64,000 nt of DNA from Pseudooceanicola batsensis HTCC2597 (GTDB taxonomy: Bacteria > Pseudomonadota > Alphaproteobacteria > Rhodobacterales > Rhodobacteraceae): contig NZ_CH724131.1 in NCBI RefSeq assembly GCF_000152725.1, forward strand, positions 1,289,856-1,353,855. Direction: 5' to 3'. Shown piece after piece: positions 2,826-61,312 of this stretch. The position numbers were made by a program, and so were the translations under genes. Position 1 is the first letter of the stretch. Every line of letters begins with the position of its first letter. A model generated the notes under the pieces. It was given only the letters and a program-made list of their open reading frames with translations. It did no database searches and was not told the DNA's origin.

Positions 2826-3375
2826 CGGCTGTCGCGCAGGATGGCAGAGGACGGGGATGCGGGGAGACCGGGAGATCCCCGGTCGGGGCCGGGGATGCCG
2901 GGTGTGCAGGACCCGCTGACCTCGGACCCGGTCGGGGGGCTGTCTGCCCCCCGCCGCGCGGGCGCGCGGCTCCCCCCGAGGATATTTTCCGGACCAAAGA
3001 AGCGGGGGCGGGCGCGGGTCGGGAGGTCGCGACGAGCGGCCGGGCCTCCGTCTCGATGCGGACGGTCCGGAGTGGGTCGGTCGAGGCGGCGCGATGGCGA
3101 GGCGCGCGGCGGCGGTCGTGGCCGGGAGGTCGCCGGGTGTCACGGGACGGCCCGTGGCGGCCCGTGGCGGTCCGCTTCCAGCTCGTGACAGGCGGCGTGC
3201 CGGGTGGCGCGGGCCGCGGCCTCGCGCAGGGGGGGCGGCCTGACGGGCCGGAGGCCTCGGGGCGGCCACCGCGGGCGGGACGATCCGCGCCCGCCTGTCG
3301 GGTCGACGCGGACCGTCGCCCCCTTCACGGGACATGGCAGCCGGGCGCGGGGCCCCGGGAGCACGGCACGCGGGA
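2826..3375. other. Gene-free convergent spacer
   Basis: The 550 bases between the ends of the fructokinase gene and the leftward DUF475 gene hold one full copy of the composite hairpin repeat (2934-3003). The rest is very GC-rich sequence whose open frames on both strands look like composition artefacts: no ribosome-binding site and no recognisable domain. A short direct repeat of GGCCCGTGGC lies near 3147-3170. No gene is supported. Confidence 0.6.
2934..3003 (+). repeat. Composite hairpin repeat, copy 1 (full length)
   Basis: Three parts in order. Hairpin I is GGGGGGC (2934-2940), a 5-base loop and GCCCCCC (2946-2952). Hairpin II is GCCGCGCG (2953-2960), GG, CGCGCGGC (2963-2970). The core (2976-3003) reads CCGAGGATATTTTCCGGACC then AAAGAAGC. 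It lies 108 bases past the fructokinase stop and reads in the same direction. Related copies start at 12112, 32889 and 62291 on this strand, and end at 18139, 36144 and 47459 on the other. Confidence 0.8.
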
Positions 3376-4449
3376 TCACCCCGCCGCGGCGCGGTTCCAG
3401 CGGATCGAGGACCAGAGCGCCACGCCGATCAGCAGGGCGCCGCCCAGACCGGTGATCACCTCGGGGATCTCGACGAAGGACTGCAGGAACATGATCACGG
3501 CGAGGATCGTGATCGCGTAGAAAGCCCCGTGTTCCAGGTAGCGGTACTGGCTCAGCGTGCCCTTCTCGACCAGCATGATGGTCATCGAGCGCACGTACAT
3601 CGCCCCGATCCCCAGGCCGATGGCGATGACGAAGAGGTTCTGGCTGAGGGCGAAGGCGCCGATCACCCCGTCGAAGGAGAAGGAGGCGTCGAGCACCTCG
3701 AGATAGAGGAAGGCCCCGAGCCCGCCCTGCGCGCCCGTCTTCATCGCCTCGTTCCGGTCGAGGATCCCGCCCAGGACCTCGACCGCGAGAAAGGTGATGA
3801 GCCCCCAGATCGCCGAAACGAGGAAACTGTGCCCCTTGTCCCCGCCATGCAGCTGGCTGATCGCCATCACCACCCCCAGGACCAGCGCGATTTCGATCCC
3901 CTTGACGCTGGCGTAGCGGGCGATCCGCTCTTCCAGCCAGCGCACCCAGTGGATGTCCTTTTCGTGGTCGAAGAAGAAGCCCAGCCCCACCATCATCAGG
4001 AACGTGCCGCCGAAGGCCGCGATCGAGAGATGCGCCTCGTGCATGATCCGGGCGTAGGCTTCGGGCTCGCTCGCCGCGAGGCGGATGGCCTCGACGGGCC
4101 CGATGTCCGCCGCCACCACCACGATGAGCAGCGGAAACACGATGCGCATGCCGAAGACCGCGATCAGGATCCCCCAGGTCAGGAACCGGCGCTGCCAGAC
4201 GGGCGACATGTCCTTGAGCTTGTTGGCGTTGACGATGGCATTGTCGAAGGAGAGGCTGATCTCGAGCACGGCGAGCACCGCGCATATGAAGAAGATCGTC
4301 AGCGTTCCCTCGACCGTGCGGGACCCGGCCCAGCCCAGCCAGCCGCCGAGGATCAGGCCGGCCGCGGTCACGGCGAAGGCCCAGAAGAAATAGCTTATCG
4401 CGCCCCTGTCGCGGCGCTCCGGCAGAGGGCCGGTATGGTGTGAAGACAT
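3376..4449 (-). CDS. DUF475 family integral membrane protein (TerC-like)
   Basis: A 357-residue polytopic membrane protein with about eight hydrophobic segments. It contains LEISLSFDNAIVNANKLK and, in the second half, a matching FSFDGVIGAFALSQN, the internally repeated SFD-containing helices of the TerC/DUF475 group. These proteins are often associated with metal (including manganese) handling or membrane stress; the substrate here is unknown. The ATG at 4449 was chosen because the longer open frame upstream is rich in Arg and has no ribosome-binding site. The gene runs in the same direction as the holin-like and DUF883 genes to its right but is separated from them by 156 bases, so shared transcription is possible and not certain. 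Confidence 0.8.
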   Translation of the reverse strand: MSSHHTGPLPERRDRGAISYFFWAFAVTAAGLILGGWLGWAGSRTVEGTLTIFFICAVLAVLEISLSFDNAIVNANKLKDMSPVWQRRFLTWGILIAVFGMRIVFPLLIVVVAADIGPVEAIRLAASEPEAYARIMHEAHLSIAAFGGTFLMMVGLGFFFDHEKDIHWVRWLEERIARYASVKGIEIALVLGVVMAISQLHGGDKGHSFLVSAIWGLITFLAVEVLGGILDRNEAMKTGAQGGLGAFLYLEVLDASFSFDGVIGAFALSQNLFVIAIGLGIGAMYVRSMTIMLVEKGTLSQYRYLEHGAFYAITILAVIMFLQSFVEIPEVITGLGGALLIGVALWSSIRWNRAAAG

Positions 4450-7197: not shown

Positions 7198-7227
7198 GTC
7201 ATCCTCGGGCTCGACCCGAGGTTCTCC
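7198..7227 (+). repeat. Dispersed palindromic repeat (CCTCGGG family), copy R1
   Basis: A 30-base element centred on CCTCGGG (7203-7209), CTCGA, CCCGAGG (7215-7221), flanked by GTCAT and TTCTCC. The identical 30 bases occur in reverse orientation at 39218-39247. It lies between the DUF1992 and SGNH genes, which point away from each other. Confidence 0.8.
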
Positions 7228-27466: not shown

Positions 27467-28120
27467 TCAGGGCCCGTCGAAGCCGTATCCGAACCGCGCG
27501 ATGTCCCGGGCGCAGCAATCGGCCAGCAGCGCCGAATCGCGGTCGTCGTAGAACCTGCGGTAATCCGCCCCGGCGCCGGTCACGTTCTCCTGCGGCAGGG
27601 CGAGGGCAAAGCCCAGGTGATCGAAGAGCGGCGCGGCATCCGTCTCGAAATGTTCCAGCCGGATGAACAGGGCCGGCCGTTCCCGGCCGCTGGCGTCGGT
27701 GACGTAATGCGCGGCGGGGCTGACGCGGAAACTTTCCCGGATCAGGCGGTGGTTCAGAAAGCCGCTGAAATCCCGCGTTCGGGCGATCCGCACCGCCGGG
27801 TGATCGAAGGTCTGTTTCCGCAGCCAGTGATAATAGCTGACTGCCCGCGCCCAGGGATTGCGCACGAGGGTGAAGAGGAAAAGATCGCCGATCTCCTCCA
27901 TGGCGACCAGCCCGTCCAGATCGGCGAGCGTCGAATGCTTCCACAGCCGCCCGCGGCTCTCGATCCCCCTGACGCGGCCCCGCCGGTTGCGTGCCTTGGG
28001 CGTGTCGCCCAGCATGATGTCGTCCTTCATCGCCCGCGACTCGAGCGCCAGCGCCAGCGAGGTGCCGCCGGTCTTGGGGATGTGGATGAAGAGATAGCGG
28101 CGCCCGCGCGACAGGATCAT
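27467..28120 (-). CDS. Sulfotransferase family protein
   Basis: A 217-residue protein with the PAPS-binding 5'-phosphosulfate loop FIHIPKTGGTSL (about residues 10-21) and the 3'-phosphate motif RNPWARAVSYYHW (about 88-100). This is the short sulfotransferase_2 type seen in marine and soil alphaproteobacteria, probably acting on a polysaccharide or small metabolite. No glycan cluster is next to it. ATG 28120 was chosen because the upstream frame runs into the tandem palindrome array and is non-coding. It is divergent from the TSUP gene across that array. Confidence 0.8.
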   Translation of the reverse strand: MILSRGRRYLFIHIPKTGGTSLALALESRAMKDDIMLGDTPKARNRRGRVRGIESRGRLWKHSTLADLDGLVAMEEIGDLFLFTLVRNPWARAVSYYHWLRKQTFDHPAVRIARTRDFSGFLNHRLIRESFRVSPAAHYVTDASGRERPALFIRLEHFETDAAPLFDHLGFALALPQENVTGAGADYRRFYDDRDSALLADCCARDIARFGYGFDGP

Positions 28121-28653
28121 GGCCCCGGTTACCCCGCCCGCCCGACCCGGGGCAAGACCGGAGCCCGCCCCGCCGCCGCCTTCGCACCATGCCCGTTCCA
28201 CGTCCGGACCCGATCTCCCCCGCACCCAAAACCGAAGGTGTCCCCGGCTCCGCCCGGGGACCACACCGCCACGCCATACCACCGTCGCCCCCGGCTCCGC
28301 CCGTAGATCCCCTCCACCCCGCTCCACCGTCGCCCCCGGCCCCGACCGGGGACCTCTCCGCCACCCCGCACCAGAGTCATCCCCGGCTCCAGCCAAGGAT
28401 CCCCACCACCCCGCACCAGGATCATCTCCGGCTCCGCCCGAGGACCTCCCCGACACTCCGCACCACCGTCGTCCCCGGACCCGCCCGGGGACCTCCCCCA
28501 ACTTCGCACTACCGTCATCCCCGGCTCCGACCGTGGATCTCCCCCACTCCGATCCGCCGTCGTCCCCGCCCCGGACCACGCGGCTCTCCCCCGTCTCGCT
28601 TGCGGCCCGCCCGCCGGAGCGCTATCGCGGGTCGGACACCTACCGGACCCGCA
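28121..28653. other. Divergent spacer filled by a palindrome array
   Basis: This 533-base gap between the start codons of the sulfotransferase and TSUP genes consists mostly of the tandem array at 28238-28600. Long open frames cross it on both strands because the repeat is GC-rich and its length varies between 45 and 47 bases; they are Pro/Arg-rich and not credible genes. Promoters for both neighbours must lie at its edges or within it. Confidence 0.65.
28238..28600. repeat. Tandem array of about 7.5 palindromic units of 45-47 bp
   Basis: Units begin at 28238, 28284, 28329, 28376, 28421, 28468, 28514 and (partial) 28559. Each opens with a GTCATCCCCGGCTCCGACCG-like imperfect palindrome followed by GGGATCTCC and closes with a CACCCCGCACCA-like linker. 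Unit lengths are 46, 45, 47, 45, 47, 46 and 45. The palindrome is of the same type as the single copies at 7198, 39218 and 61232. There is no unique spacer between units, so this is not a CRISPR. Confidence 0.85.
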
Positions 28654-29394
28654 ATGGACCCCGTCTACCTGCTCGTTTTCGCCGCCGTGATGGTCGGCAC
28701 CGCCAAGGGCGGCCTCTCGACCGTCGGATCGGTGGCCGTGCCCCTCGTCGCGCTCGTGATGAACCCGGTCGTCGCCGCCGCCACCTTGCTGCCTGTCTAT
28801 ATCGTGACCGACTGGGTCGGCGTGGCGCTCTATCGGCGGACCTTCTCTCTCGCCAATCTGAAGATCCTCGTGCCCGCGATGCTGCTCGGGATCGCCATCG
28901 CGACCGTCATGGTCACCGTCGCGCCCGAGGCGCTGCTGCTGATCATCACCGGGCTGATCGGCCTGTGGTACTGCCTGCGGTCCTGGCTGCGCCGGAGACC
29001 GCCGGTCAAGACCGGACCGGCCCTGGTCCCCGGTCTCGCCTGGGGCACGCTGGCGGGTATCGCCAGCTATCTCACCCACTCCGCCGGCCCGCCCACGCAG
29101 GCCTATCTCCTGCCGCAGCGGATGCCCAAGCTGGAATATGCCGGCACCGTCGCCATCACCTTCGCCTTCGTGAACCTGTCGAAACTGCCGGGCTATGCGC
29201 TCGCCGGCCAGTTCGACGATCTGGACTGGTCGCTCATCCCCTGGCTCATCCTTGCGGGGGTCGGCGGCACGGCCCTCGGGAGCTGGCTGACCGAGATCCT
29301 GCCCGAGGCGATCTATGTCCGAGTGATCGAGGTCTTTCTCTTCCTGCTCTCGATCATCCTGCTTGCCAAGGGAACTGCCGCCCTGCTGGCCTGA
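28654..29394 (+). CDS. TSUP (TauE/SafE) family membrane transporter
   Basis: A 246-residue protein with about eight hydrophobic segments. AAVMVGTAKGGLSTVGS at the N-terminus and the matching GLAWGTLAGIASYLTHSAGP in the second half are the two internal repeats of the TauE/SafE family, which moves sulfite, sulfonates or other small anions. ATG 28654 follows the array. The acyl-CoA ligase gene begins 98 bases downstream in the same direction. If that ligase handles a sulfur-containing acid, sulfite or thiol export would make sense, but this is only inference. Confidence 0.85.
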   Translation: MDPVYLLVFAAVMVGTAKGGLSTVGSVAVPLVALVMNPVVAAATLLPVYIVTDWVGVALYRRTFSLANLKILVPAMLLGIAIATVMVTVAPEALLLIITGLIGLWYCLRSWLRRRPPVKTGPALVPGLAWGTLAGIASYLTHSAGPPTQAYLLPQRMPKLEYAGTVAITFAFVNLSKLPGYALAGQFDDLDWSLIPWLILAGVGGTALGSWLTEILPEAIYVRVIEVFLFLLSIILLAKGTAALLA

Positions 29395-29492
29395 GACCAT
29401 CGCGCGGCCACGGCCGAAAGCCTCCTCAACCCGCTTCCCCTCGCCCCGCCTTCTGCGCTATTGCGGATGGCGGACCTGACAGGGAGGATGCC

Positions 29493-31121
29493 ATGGGCTG
29501 GATGGCCGACGAAACCGGGCTGGAAAAGTGTGCCGCCAATTACGTGCCGCTCACTCCGCTCAGCAACCTGCGCCGCGCCGCGCGCATCTGGCCGGGGCGC
29601 GAAGCGCTGGTCTACGGCAGCTTCCGCAAGACCTATGCCGAGTATCACGAGCGCGTCACCCGCCTCGCCTCGGCCCTCGCCGGGCTGGGCGTGACGCCGG
29701 GGGACGTGGTCGCCACGATCCTGCCCAACCTGCCCCCCCATGCCGAGGCGCATTTCGGCGTTCCCGCCTGCGGCGCCGTGCTCAACGCGATCAACACCCG
29801 GCTGGACGCAGGCACCGTCGCCTATATCCTCGACCATGGCGGGGCCAAGGTCGTGCTCTGCGACAGCCAGTTCGTCTCGGTCCTGGCCGAGGCGATGGAG
29901 CGGATGGAGGGGCCCAGACCGCGCGTCATCGAATGCCCCGACGATCAGGCCGGGGTCCACTCGCGCTCGGACTACATGACCTACGAGGATTTGCTGGCCC
30001 GGGGCGACCCCGCCTTCGACTGGATCATGCCCGAGGACGAATGGGAGAGCATCGCGCTCAACTACACCTCCGGCACCACCGGCCGGCCCAAGGGCGTGGT
30101 CTATCACCACCGCGGTGCGCATCAGAACGCGATGGGGCAGATCCTGTCGTGGCGGATGCAGCTCTACCCGCGCTACCTGACCATCGTGCCGCTCTTCCAC
30201 TGCAACGGCTGGTGCCATACCTGGATGATCCCGCTGCTCGGCGGCACCGTGGTCTGCTGCCGCGACATCACCGCACCCGCCCTCTTCGCAGCCTTCGCCG
30301 ACGAGGGCGTGACCCATTTCGGCGGAGCGCCCATCGTGCTGAACATGCTCGTCAACGCCCCCGAGGATCAGCGCCGGCCCTTCGAACAGACGGTCGAGGT
30401 CTTCACCGCCGGCGCGCCCCCCGCCCCCGCGACGCTCGCCCAGATCGAACCGATGGGCTTCAACGTCACCCAGGTCTACGGCCTGACGGAAACCTACGGC
30501 CCCGCGACCGAATCCACCTGGGACGACGACCTATGGGGCGATCTCACCGGCGACGCCCGCGCCGCGAAGAAGGCCCGCCAGGGCGTGGCCATGCCCGCCT
30601 ACGAACACATCACCGCCATGACCTCGGACATGGAGCAGATCCCCATGGACGCCGAGGCCACAGGCGAGATCATGATGCGCGGCAACGGGGTGATGAAGGG
30701 CTATCTGAAGAACCCCGAGGCCACAAAGGAAGCGTTCAAGGGCGGCTATTTCCATACCGGGGACATCGCGCTCCAGCATTCCGACGGCTATCTCCAGATC
30801 GCCGACCGCGCCAAGGACATCATCATCTCGGGCGGCGAGAACATCTCCTCGGTCGAGGTCGAGGGCGTGCTGATGGGTCACCCGGACGTGCTGCTCTGCG
30901 CCGTTGTCGCCAAACCGGACGAGAAATGGGGCGAGGTCCCCTGCGCCTTCGTCGAACTCAAGGACGGGCGTGAGGGCGACGAGGCCGCACTGATCGCCTA
31001 TGCCCGCGAACGGCTGGCCGGTTTCAAGACGCCCAAGAAGGTCGTGTTCCGGGAATTGCCCAAGACCTCGACCGGAAAGATCCAGAAGTTCGAACTGCGC
31101 CGGCAGGTTCGCGAGGGCTGA
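29493..31121 (+). CDS. Acyl-CoA ligase (AMP-forming, medium-chain/DmdB-like)
   Basis: Activates a carboxylic acid to its CoA ester through an acyl-AMP. 542 residues. The P-loop YTSGTTGRPKG (about residues 192-202), the VYGLTETYGP motif (about 329-338), the YFHTGDIA hinge region and the C-terminal Lys in PKTSTGKIQKFELR are all in place. AGGGAGG precedes ATG 29493; the frame is open far upstream through the palindrome array, which is not coding. Sequence and length fit the medium-chain ligase group that also contains methylmercaptopropionate-CoA ligase DmdB; the substrate is undecided. Confidence 0.9.
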   Translation: MGWMADETGLEKCAANYVPLTPLSNLRRAARIWPGREALVYGSFRKTYAEYHERVTRLASALAGLGVTPGDVVATILPNLPPHAEAHFGVPACGAVLNAINTRLDAGTVAYILDHGGAKVVLCDSQFVSVLAEAMERMEGPRPRVIECPDDQAGVHSRSDYMTYEDLLARGDPAFDWIMPEDEWESIALNYTSGTTGRPKGVVYHHRGAHQNAMGQILSWRMQLYPRYLTIVPLFHCNGWCHTWMIPLLGGTVVCCRDITAPALFAAFADEGVTHFGGAPIVLNMLVNAPEDQRRPFEQTVEVFTAGAPPAPATLAQIEPMGFNVTQVYGLTETYGPATESTWDDDLWGDLTGDARAAKKARQGVAMPAYEHITAMTSDMEQIPMDAEATGEIMMRGNGVMKGYLKNPEATKEAFKGGYFHTGDIALQHSDGYLQIADRAKDIIISGGENISSVEVEGVLMGHPDVLLCAVVAKPDEKWGEVPCAFVELKDGREGDEAALIAYARERLAGFKTPKKVVFRELPKTSTGKIQKFELRRQVREG

Positions 31122-39217: not shown

Positions 39218-39247
39218 GGAGAACCTCGGGTCGAGCCCGAGGATGAC
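39218..39247 (-). repeat. Dispersed palindromic repeat, copy R2 (identical to R1)
   Basis: The reverse complement of these 30 bases is identical to 7198-7227, 32 kb away. A diverged third copy follows at 39267-39294 (CCTCGGG-TTCGG-CCCGGGG). Confidence 0.85.
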
Positions 39248-47389: not shown

Positions 47390-47459
47390 CTTCACCTTGC
47401 CGAAAATACTCCGGGGGTGAATTGAGCCCGCAGGGCTCAAGAGGGGGCCGCGCCCCCTC
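47390..47459 (-). repeat. Composite hairpin repeat, full copy after glyA
   Basis: On the minus strand: hairpin I GAGGGGGC-GCG-GCCCCCTC (47459-47441), hairpin II TTGAGCCC-TGC-GGGCTCAA (47440-47422), core CCCCCGGAGTATTTTCGGCA then AGGTGAAG to 47390. It reads in the direction of the small membrane-protein gene at 47641, which ends 181 bases away. Confidence 0.8.
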
Positions 47460-47544
47460 TTGGTCCTTCTGATTGCGCACCTCCGGTGCGACAGGGGGCC
47501 GCGCCCCCTCTTGTCCCTTCTGATCGCGCACCTCCGGTGCGACA
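47443..47544. repeat. Two tandem 51-bp hairpin units
   Basis: Units start at 47443 and 47494. Each has GGGGGC-CGC-GCCCCC, a TCTTG-TCCTTCTGAT linker and the palindrome CGCACC-TCC-GGTGCG. The two units differ at only a few bases, so the duplication looks recent. The first unit overlaps hairpin I of the composite repeat. Confidence 0.8.
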
Positions 47545-47640
47545 GGAAACAGCGCCTCCTTCTCCTCCTCGTCACCCCCCGAGCGACCGGAAACAGCGCC
47601 TCCTTCAGCAGTCCGGGCCGGACTCGCCGGCCACCAAGCC

Positions 47641-61231: not shown

Positions 61232-61312
61232 GCATCCTCGGGTCAGGCCCGAAGTCTCCGTCCGCCGGTCGCCCGCTGGCCGGTGAGCTCCCCGGGTCAG
61301 GCCCGAGGATGC
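61232..61312. repeat. Two opposed CCTCGGG-family palindromes
   Basis: GGCATCCTCGGGTCAGGCCC then GAAGTCTCC (61231-61259), and the opposite orientation GAGCTCCCCGGGTCAGGCCC then GAGGATGC (61286-61312). They lie between the convergent hrpB and argF genes and could form one large hairpin or act as a terminator on both strands. Confidence 0.7.

Follow-up and report, generated by a model that had tools for sequence, protein, structure and literature searches.

A head-to-tail array of CGTC-REP-like palindromes between two divergent genes of Pseudooceanicola batsensis

Kinship to described repeats

CGTC-REPs are short palindromes of alphaproteobacteria. According to the survey by Di Nocera et al. (2013; PMC3733652), they have a CGTC-like tag, a stem of 8-9 bp with A-T outer pairs, a loop mostly of 4-5 nt (other lengths being known from a few species) and a CCA tail; the tail holds for "most" of them and is thus typical rather than strictly defining. 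They lie between genes, near gene 3' ends, and form mainly head-head dimers. The survey calls head-to-tail dimers "negligible" and clusters rare, and leaves open how the elements spread without a dedicated transposase. Two other systems invite comparison. Enterobacterial BIMEs are clusters of palindromes at regular spacing in which, according to PMC2817692, REP orientation alternates. The SMAG arrays of Stenotrophomonas maltophilia, according to PMC2613905, reiterate short palindromes and flanking DNA in tandem, with a unit number that varies between isolates.

The window analysed here, a 64,000-nucleotide stretch of the P. batsensis HTCC2597 genome, carries a tandem array at 28237-28594 that comprises seven units and a decayed eighth, all in one orientation, with a mean step of 46 bp (45/47). 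An earlier note, made from the letters alone, had claimed a tandem palindromic array, and this claim is borne out by Tandem Repeats Finder, by the regularity of the palindrome cores and by their common orientation. The program places the repeat at 28240-28568 with periods of 45, 47 and 92, a best score of 325 and, at period 45, 7.2 copies. The cores start at 28241, 28288, 28333, 28380, 28425, 28472 and 28518, and that of the decayed eighth unit at about 28564; the spacings of the first seven are, in order, 47, 45, 47, 45, 47 and 46. The seven head-to-tail units (28237..28559, + strand) occupy 28237-28283, 28284-28328, 28329-28375, 28376-28420, 28421-28467, 28468-28513 and 28514-28559. The eighth (28560..28594, +) is 43-62% identical to the others. 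In each unit, arms of the ATCCCCGG and CCGGGGAT types flank a loop of 6 nt and form an 8-bp stem; a GTC-type tag precedes the first arm, and a C-rich linker follows the second.

Genome-wide, the consensus of this form (form A; 33 units from 18 loci) reads CGCACCACC GTC ATCCCCGG CCCCGA CCGGGGAT CTCCCGCCACCCCGC. Judged by its anatomy, the family fits the CGTC-type REPs, albeit with a longer loop and a different tail, and the earlier assignment of the palindromes to an alphaproteobacterial kind is upheld. Shared with the CGTC-REPs are the CGTC-like tag, the 8-9 bp stem, the A-T outer pairs, the intergenic location near gene 3' ends, the alphaproteobacterial host and, as far as the Y1 family goes, the lack of a dedicated transposase. 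The tag is CGTC as a consensus from which some units deviate: it reads CGTC in 11 of the 33 form A units, CCTC in 4 and TGTC in 1, and 10 of the 17 others are one letter off CGTC. Eight stem pairs are formed, with 91.7% of 264 cells paired, the first pair being A-T in 24/33 units and the second T-A in 29/33. The 6-nt loop of form A is longer than in most described members. Form A departs from the described type in its tail (CTC in 26/33 units, CCA in 1/33) and in its stacking into head-to-tail arrays, whose step is close to 46 bp.

The other two systems are more distant. Unlike in BIMEs, all seven units lie on the + strand; SMAG consists of another palindrome type with variable unit number, whereas the units described here have diverged. 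A CRISPR was rejected: the palindromes are diverged while the linkers are alike, the opposite of near-identical repeats with unrelated spacers. Rfam returned a sub-threshold match only. Mobilisation of a GTAG-type REP by a RAYT was likewise set aside, given the CGTC-like tag and the absence of any match to the Y1 transposase family (PF01797) in the P. batsensis genome, which is 92.35% complete; the same search was positive in 5 of 14 control genomes. The result also lends no support to a RAYT protein, whose binding to the array the earlier note had proposed to test.

The family in the window and the genome

At up to three mismatches on both strands, TCCCCGGNYCNGNCCGGGGA has 25 matches in the window, compared with 4.26 ± 2.48 in shuffled sequences, none of 100 of which reached 25. 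One of the family's copies, a single form A element of the same subfamily at 2876..2895 (-), was recovered by pattern match and is absent from the earlier note. Copies of a sister form, form B, lie at 7199..7226 (+), 39219..39246 (-) and 61285..61312 (-). The palindromes at 7198, 39218 and 61232 had been taken for single copies; in fact all are paired. The first forms a head-head pair with a weaker copy 54 bp further along, the second a tail-tail pair whose weaker copy lies 47 bp further along, and the third, at 61232, is itself the weaker, same-strand half of a pair, 54 bp before the copy at 61285. A different and younger-looking tandem duplication is present at 47442-47560, where Tandem Repeats Finder reports a 51-bp unit in 2.1 copies at 94%; an inverted repeat can be seen inside it by eye.

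The palindrome occurs at many places in the genome (4.44 Mb, seven contigs). Form B, with a 9-bp stem and a 5-nt loop by eye, is found at 51 places with up to three mismatches, and a reversed control pattern at none; the 3.4-Mb contig holds 50 of these 51 places and 61 of the 62 matches to the family model (E of 1 or better). The form A search gave 36 units, 33 of which entered the alignment (A1) after 291525, 1007016 and 2999443 had been left out. For the analysis of loci, 36 form A places and 49 form B places of the 3.4-Mb contig were merged, which yielded 82 elements at 51 loci. Of these 36 places, those at 86590, 943739 and 943904 are form B by pattern, and four were set from the unit search (952056 and 952148, shortened in the model search, and 1318130 and 3224048, unlisted there). 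Model matches with E above about 1e-4 and no form B pattern match were dropped, as was one place on C5.

A search for further arrays, which the earlier note had proposed, shows that further, shorter ones are present in this genome. A second array lies between a gene for an HD-domain phosphohydrolase (PF13286, PF01966) and an argS-like gene (named by eye), in a junction of 328 bp where two units are good and others are worn. The argS-like junction measures 105, 117, 137, 83 and 68 bp, and lacks an array, in the five relatives nearest by the HD-domain protein, the upstream gene being uncalled in several more distant genomes. Elsewhere, past a four-unit array, a repeat of some 70-75 bp (CTCCCCAGACGCGGCGCTCGA...) is seen twice by eye (L005 about 1730-1950; G000 C2 about 952240-952460).

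With genes called by our own codon-usage script on the 3.4-Mb contig, none of the 82 elements falls inside a gene. The 51 loci comprise 25 convergent, 21 co-directional and 5 divergent junctions, so that 46 conform to the intergenic preference of CGTC-REPs for convergent or co-directional neighbours; the window array is one of the five exceptions. Window junctions of at least 60 bp divide into 21 co-directional, 9 convergent and 11 divergent ones (n=41), and the shortage of divergent loci in the family (5/51 vs 11/41) is borderline (Fisher p 0.051). Such a distribution raises the question of whether the palindromes act as RNA, as sense 3'-end hairpins after stop codons whose C-rich, G-poor linkers recruit Rho or stop exonucleases, the array being a displaced or former element of this kind. 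Besides the 46 loci and the empty gene interiors, this proposal is favored by the orientation of co-directional form A loci (6 sense, 1 antisense, 1 mixed), by the tagged end of the first unit, which lies 20-70 bp past a stop codon in 12 of 18 convergent or co-directional form A loci, and by base composition (C makes up 54% and G 21% of the array's + strand; in its linkers the shares are 57% and 14%). However, no gene ends into the divergently placed array, a terminator scan found no terminator-like site in it, and its + strand folds as RNA no better than shuffled sequences (z -0.79). The minus strand does fold better than shuffles (z -2.56, 1/100), which counts against reading the array as inert, decayed DNA. 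Co-directional loci with form B only are unbiased (5 sense, 5 antisense, 3 mixed), and at C2:952019 the array is oriented opposite to the genes beside it. On balance we consider an RNA role unlikely to explain the array.

Geometry among relatives

Pair geometry was scored with weight matrices for forms A and B, trained on the genome's own units, at a score of at least 8 and for pairs up to 70 bp apart. In P. batsensis, head-to-tail pairs number 25, head-head pairs 15 and tail-tail pairs 4 (19, 15 and 4 without the window array); the head-to-tail ones are spread over 14 of the 51 loci. The predominance of head-head pairs, an organisational trend of CGTC-REPs rather than a defining feature, is therefore not found in this genome (25 head-to-tail vs 15 head-head). 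A close relative, G008, has 132 form B places and is rich in head-head CGTC-REP dimers with preferred spacings of about 38 and 55 bp. Its geometry was taken from 53 loci, derived from 68 places with 0-1 mismatch among 100 listed of 132 counted; the matches listed form 6 head-to-tail, 33 head-head and 1 tail-tail pairs (n=40). Expressed as loci, the ratio of head-to-tail to head-head is 14:15 in P. batsensis and 5:32 among the matches listed for G008 (Fisher p 0.003). Raising the score to 12 gives 12:12 vs 3:31 (p 0.0007), and to 20, 8:8 vs 2:28 (p 0.0015), the G008 figures again being those among the matches listed.

Head-to-tail spacing is 43-49 bp in 23/25 P. batsensis pairs and 44-47 bp in 5/6 of the G008 pairs among the matches listed. 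Head-head pairs are 54-58 bp apart in 12/15 cases in P. batsensis; among the matches listed for G008 they are 38-40 bp apart in 17/33 and 52-57 bp in 15/33. Three of the six listed G008 head-to-tail linkers (L256, L260 and L270) resemble the P. batsensis linker consensus, with at most 1 of 2000 shuffles matching better. For L269, from a 54-bp pair, the match is reached by 20 of 2000 shuffles, and the remaining two listed linkers are unremarkable (283 and 476 of 2000). A 46-bp module of REP plus C-rich linker is thus common to G008 and P. batsensis, head-to-tail stacking having been amplified in the latter. One might go further and picture this module as a discrete mobile entity whose spread and head-to-tail growth need no RAYT and proceed, for example, by rolling-circle copying of single-strand circles; it would be scarce in G008 but have expanded in the P. 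batsensis lineage. We hold this to be improbable; if true, it would represent a second mode of REP proliferation.

Outside P. batsensis, form A gave one match, in one of 393 other genomes of the family. Across 21 other genomes of the genus it gave three weak matches, all in G008 and coinciding with form B places, in a scan whose model, built from P. batsensis units, was applied in each genome to 150 candidates out of several thousand from a first look. The exact head-to-tail pattern is absent from 189 other genomes of the class, a result that is weak alone, as the pattern finds one place only in its own genome. An exact, slightly shorter head-head control pattern, which has fewer fixed letters, is present in 8 of the same 189 genomes (9/190 with P. 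batsensis); its occurrences in G469, in G499 and at one of two P. batsensis places (C6) look like chance. These counts and the word "negligible" applied to head-to-tail dimers in PMC3733652 agree with the earlier view that a long head-to-tail array is unusual. Among papers found by full-text searches of the open-licence literature, no title or abstract opening reports fixed-step head-to-tail CGTC-REP arrays for Rhodobacteraceae, and viral contigs contain no exact matches. In three class-level genomes, G528, G507 and G028, the head-head pattern recurs 11, 5 and 4 times, with spacers that look alike within G528 and likewise within G028.

Site, decay and probable origin of the array

The left neighbour (27467..28120, -), called a sulfotransferase gene in the earlier note, matches no Pfam family at E 0.001; the right neighbour (28654..29394, +) encodes a TauE/SafE (TSUP) permease (PF01925, E 7.4e-28). 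Both are transcribed away from the array. The array was thought to fill the entire space between the start codons (28121-28653), but it leaves 116 bp free on its left side and 59 bp on its right (94 bp without the decayed eighth unit), and these flanks hold likely promoters. A sigma-70 scan found nothing, and the candidates were named from comparison with relatives instead. By eye, a candidate core promoter for the left gene lies at 28126..28155 (-; TTGCCC, 18 bp, TAACCG) and one for the TSUP gene at 28600..28628 (+; TTGCGG, 17 bp, TATCGC). The former's layout (CTTGC...TAAC) is seen by eye in three relatives at the same distance from the start codon within one base; a layout similar to the latter's (TTGC, 17 bp, TA) is seen in L053 and L054. 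The array sits between the two candidate core promoters and overlaps neither.

Relatives L053, L054 and L055 keep both genes, the left one being 76-81% identical to its orthologues there, and have no family palindrome between them (best scores -4.4, -3.7 and -11.7 vs 41.8 here). Absence in three relatives alone cannot separate gain from loss; we infer a gain in P. batsensis. L055 has an extra 111-codon frame between the two genes (3620-3955), glyoxalase-like by eye, which matches no Pfam family at E 0.001 and has left no trace in the window, and the notion that the array is the 3' end of a lost gene was discarded on this basis. A coding array was rejected as well: long frames run through it, but its step is not a multiple of three. 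Stop-free frames cross it at 28119-31121 (+), 28189-29394 (+) and 28129-29400 (-); from these spurious long ORFs, automatic annotation could add a false N-terminal extension to the TSUP gene.

A position between two outward-facing candidate promoters is what one would expect of a buffer or insulator acting at the DNA level, whose palindromes extrude cruciforms and so absorb negative supercoils, or else serve as binding sites for gyrase, IHF or a nucleoid protein; E. coli REPs are gyrase targets according to PMC3733652. Yet the family tends to avoid divergent sites, by the borderline comparison given above, and 5 of the 7 array units have at least one mismatched stem pair. Nor is the 45/47-bp step helically phased: it is no whole number of helical turns, which argues, if weakly, against proteins bound in phase along the array, and phased operators were set aside on unit spacing. 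A buffering role thus strikes us as quite unlikely.

The array is decayed. Its units are mutually 62-78% identical, Tandem Repeats Finder giving matches of 73-75%, and 47 of 56 stem pairs are intact, compared with 46.4 in shuffles. Column conservation is 0.80 in stems and 0.71 in linkers, a difference that is not significant (p 0.16), the stem value being biased upward by the choice of units by their palindrome. As the units are no more than 62-78% alike and the stems pair like shuffles, an old decaying spacer is favored over copy-number switching. A contingency locus, in which frequent changes in unit number tune the divergent promoters, has the tandem structure as such in its favor; the earlier suggestion of promoters varied in this way founders on units that are far from near-identical and on candidate core promoters that both lie outside the array, and we regard it as very improbable. 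Regulatory readings, then, have little support here.

If units duplicate locally, linkers from one locus should resemble each other more than linkers from different loci. Linker likeness is indeed 0.645 within and 0.567 between loci, a difference reached by 25 of 2000 permutations; without the window array the values are 0.731 and 0.569 (0 of 2000). Palindromes show no such excess within loci. This contrast between linkers and palindromes suggests that arrays grow in place. Linkers of a similar kind are, however, also present at many loci and in G008, and the linker may for this reason be functional. The palindrome, too, may be kept elsewhere in the genome: the outermost stem pair is changed on both sides (G-C for A-T) in 5 of 33 family units, a count that none of 500 shuffles attains, and 2 of 500 shuffles reach the covariation score over the 33 units, although a single inherited subtype explains the double changes too. 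RNAalifold predicted no pairs for the 33 units, and the evident palindrome was therefore counted against a supplied structure.

We think it probable that the array arose when a CGTC-REP module was amplified locally and in tandem within spacer DNA, and that it has since decayed and probably has no specific role. The module would total 46 bp, of which a tagged palindrome takes up about 28 bp and a C-rich linker about 18 bp. One or a few such modules may first have come into the spacer between the two divergent promoters, where slippage or unequal recombination would have multiplied them in head-to-tail order, in part perhaps by steps of 92-bp pairs, as the 45/47 alternation suggests; the pair step is weakly supported because identity at lag 2 (0.729) barely exceeds that at lag 1 (0.716). 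The units would have decayed after stacking. Most likely, the array now only sets the two promoters some 300 bp further apart, and does nothing more specific.

For the two neighbouring genes, then, the array probably does not matter. Its interest lies rather in the contrast between the P. batsensis lineage, where one subfamily is arranged largely in head-to-tail arrays of near-fixed step, and its close relative G008, where head-head dimers prevail: the two form a pair for studying the route by which such repeats are amplified.
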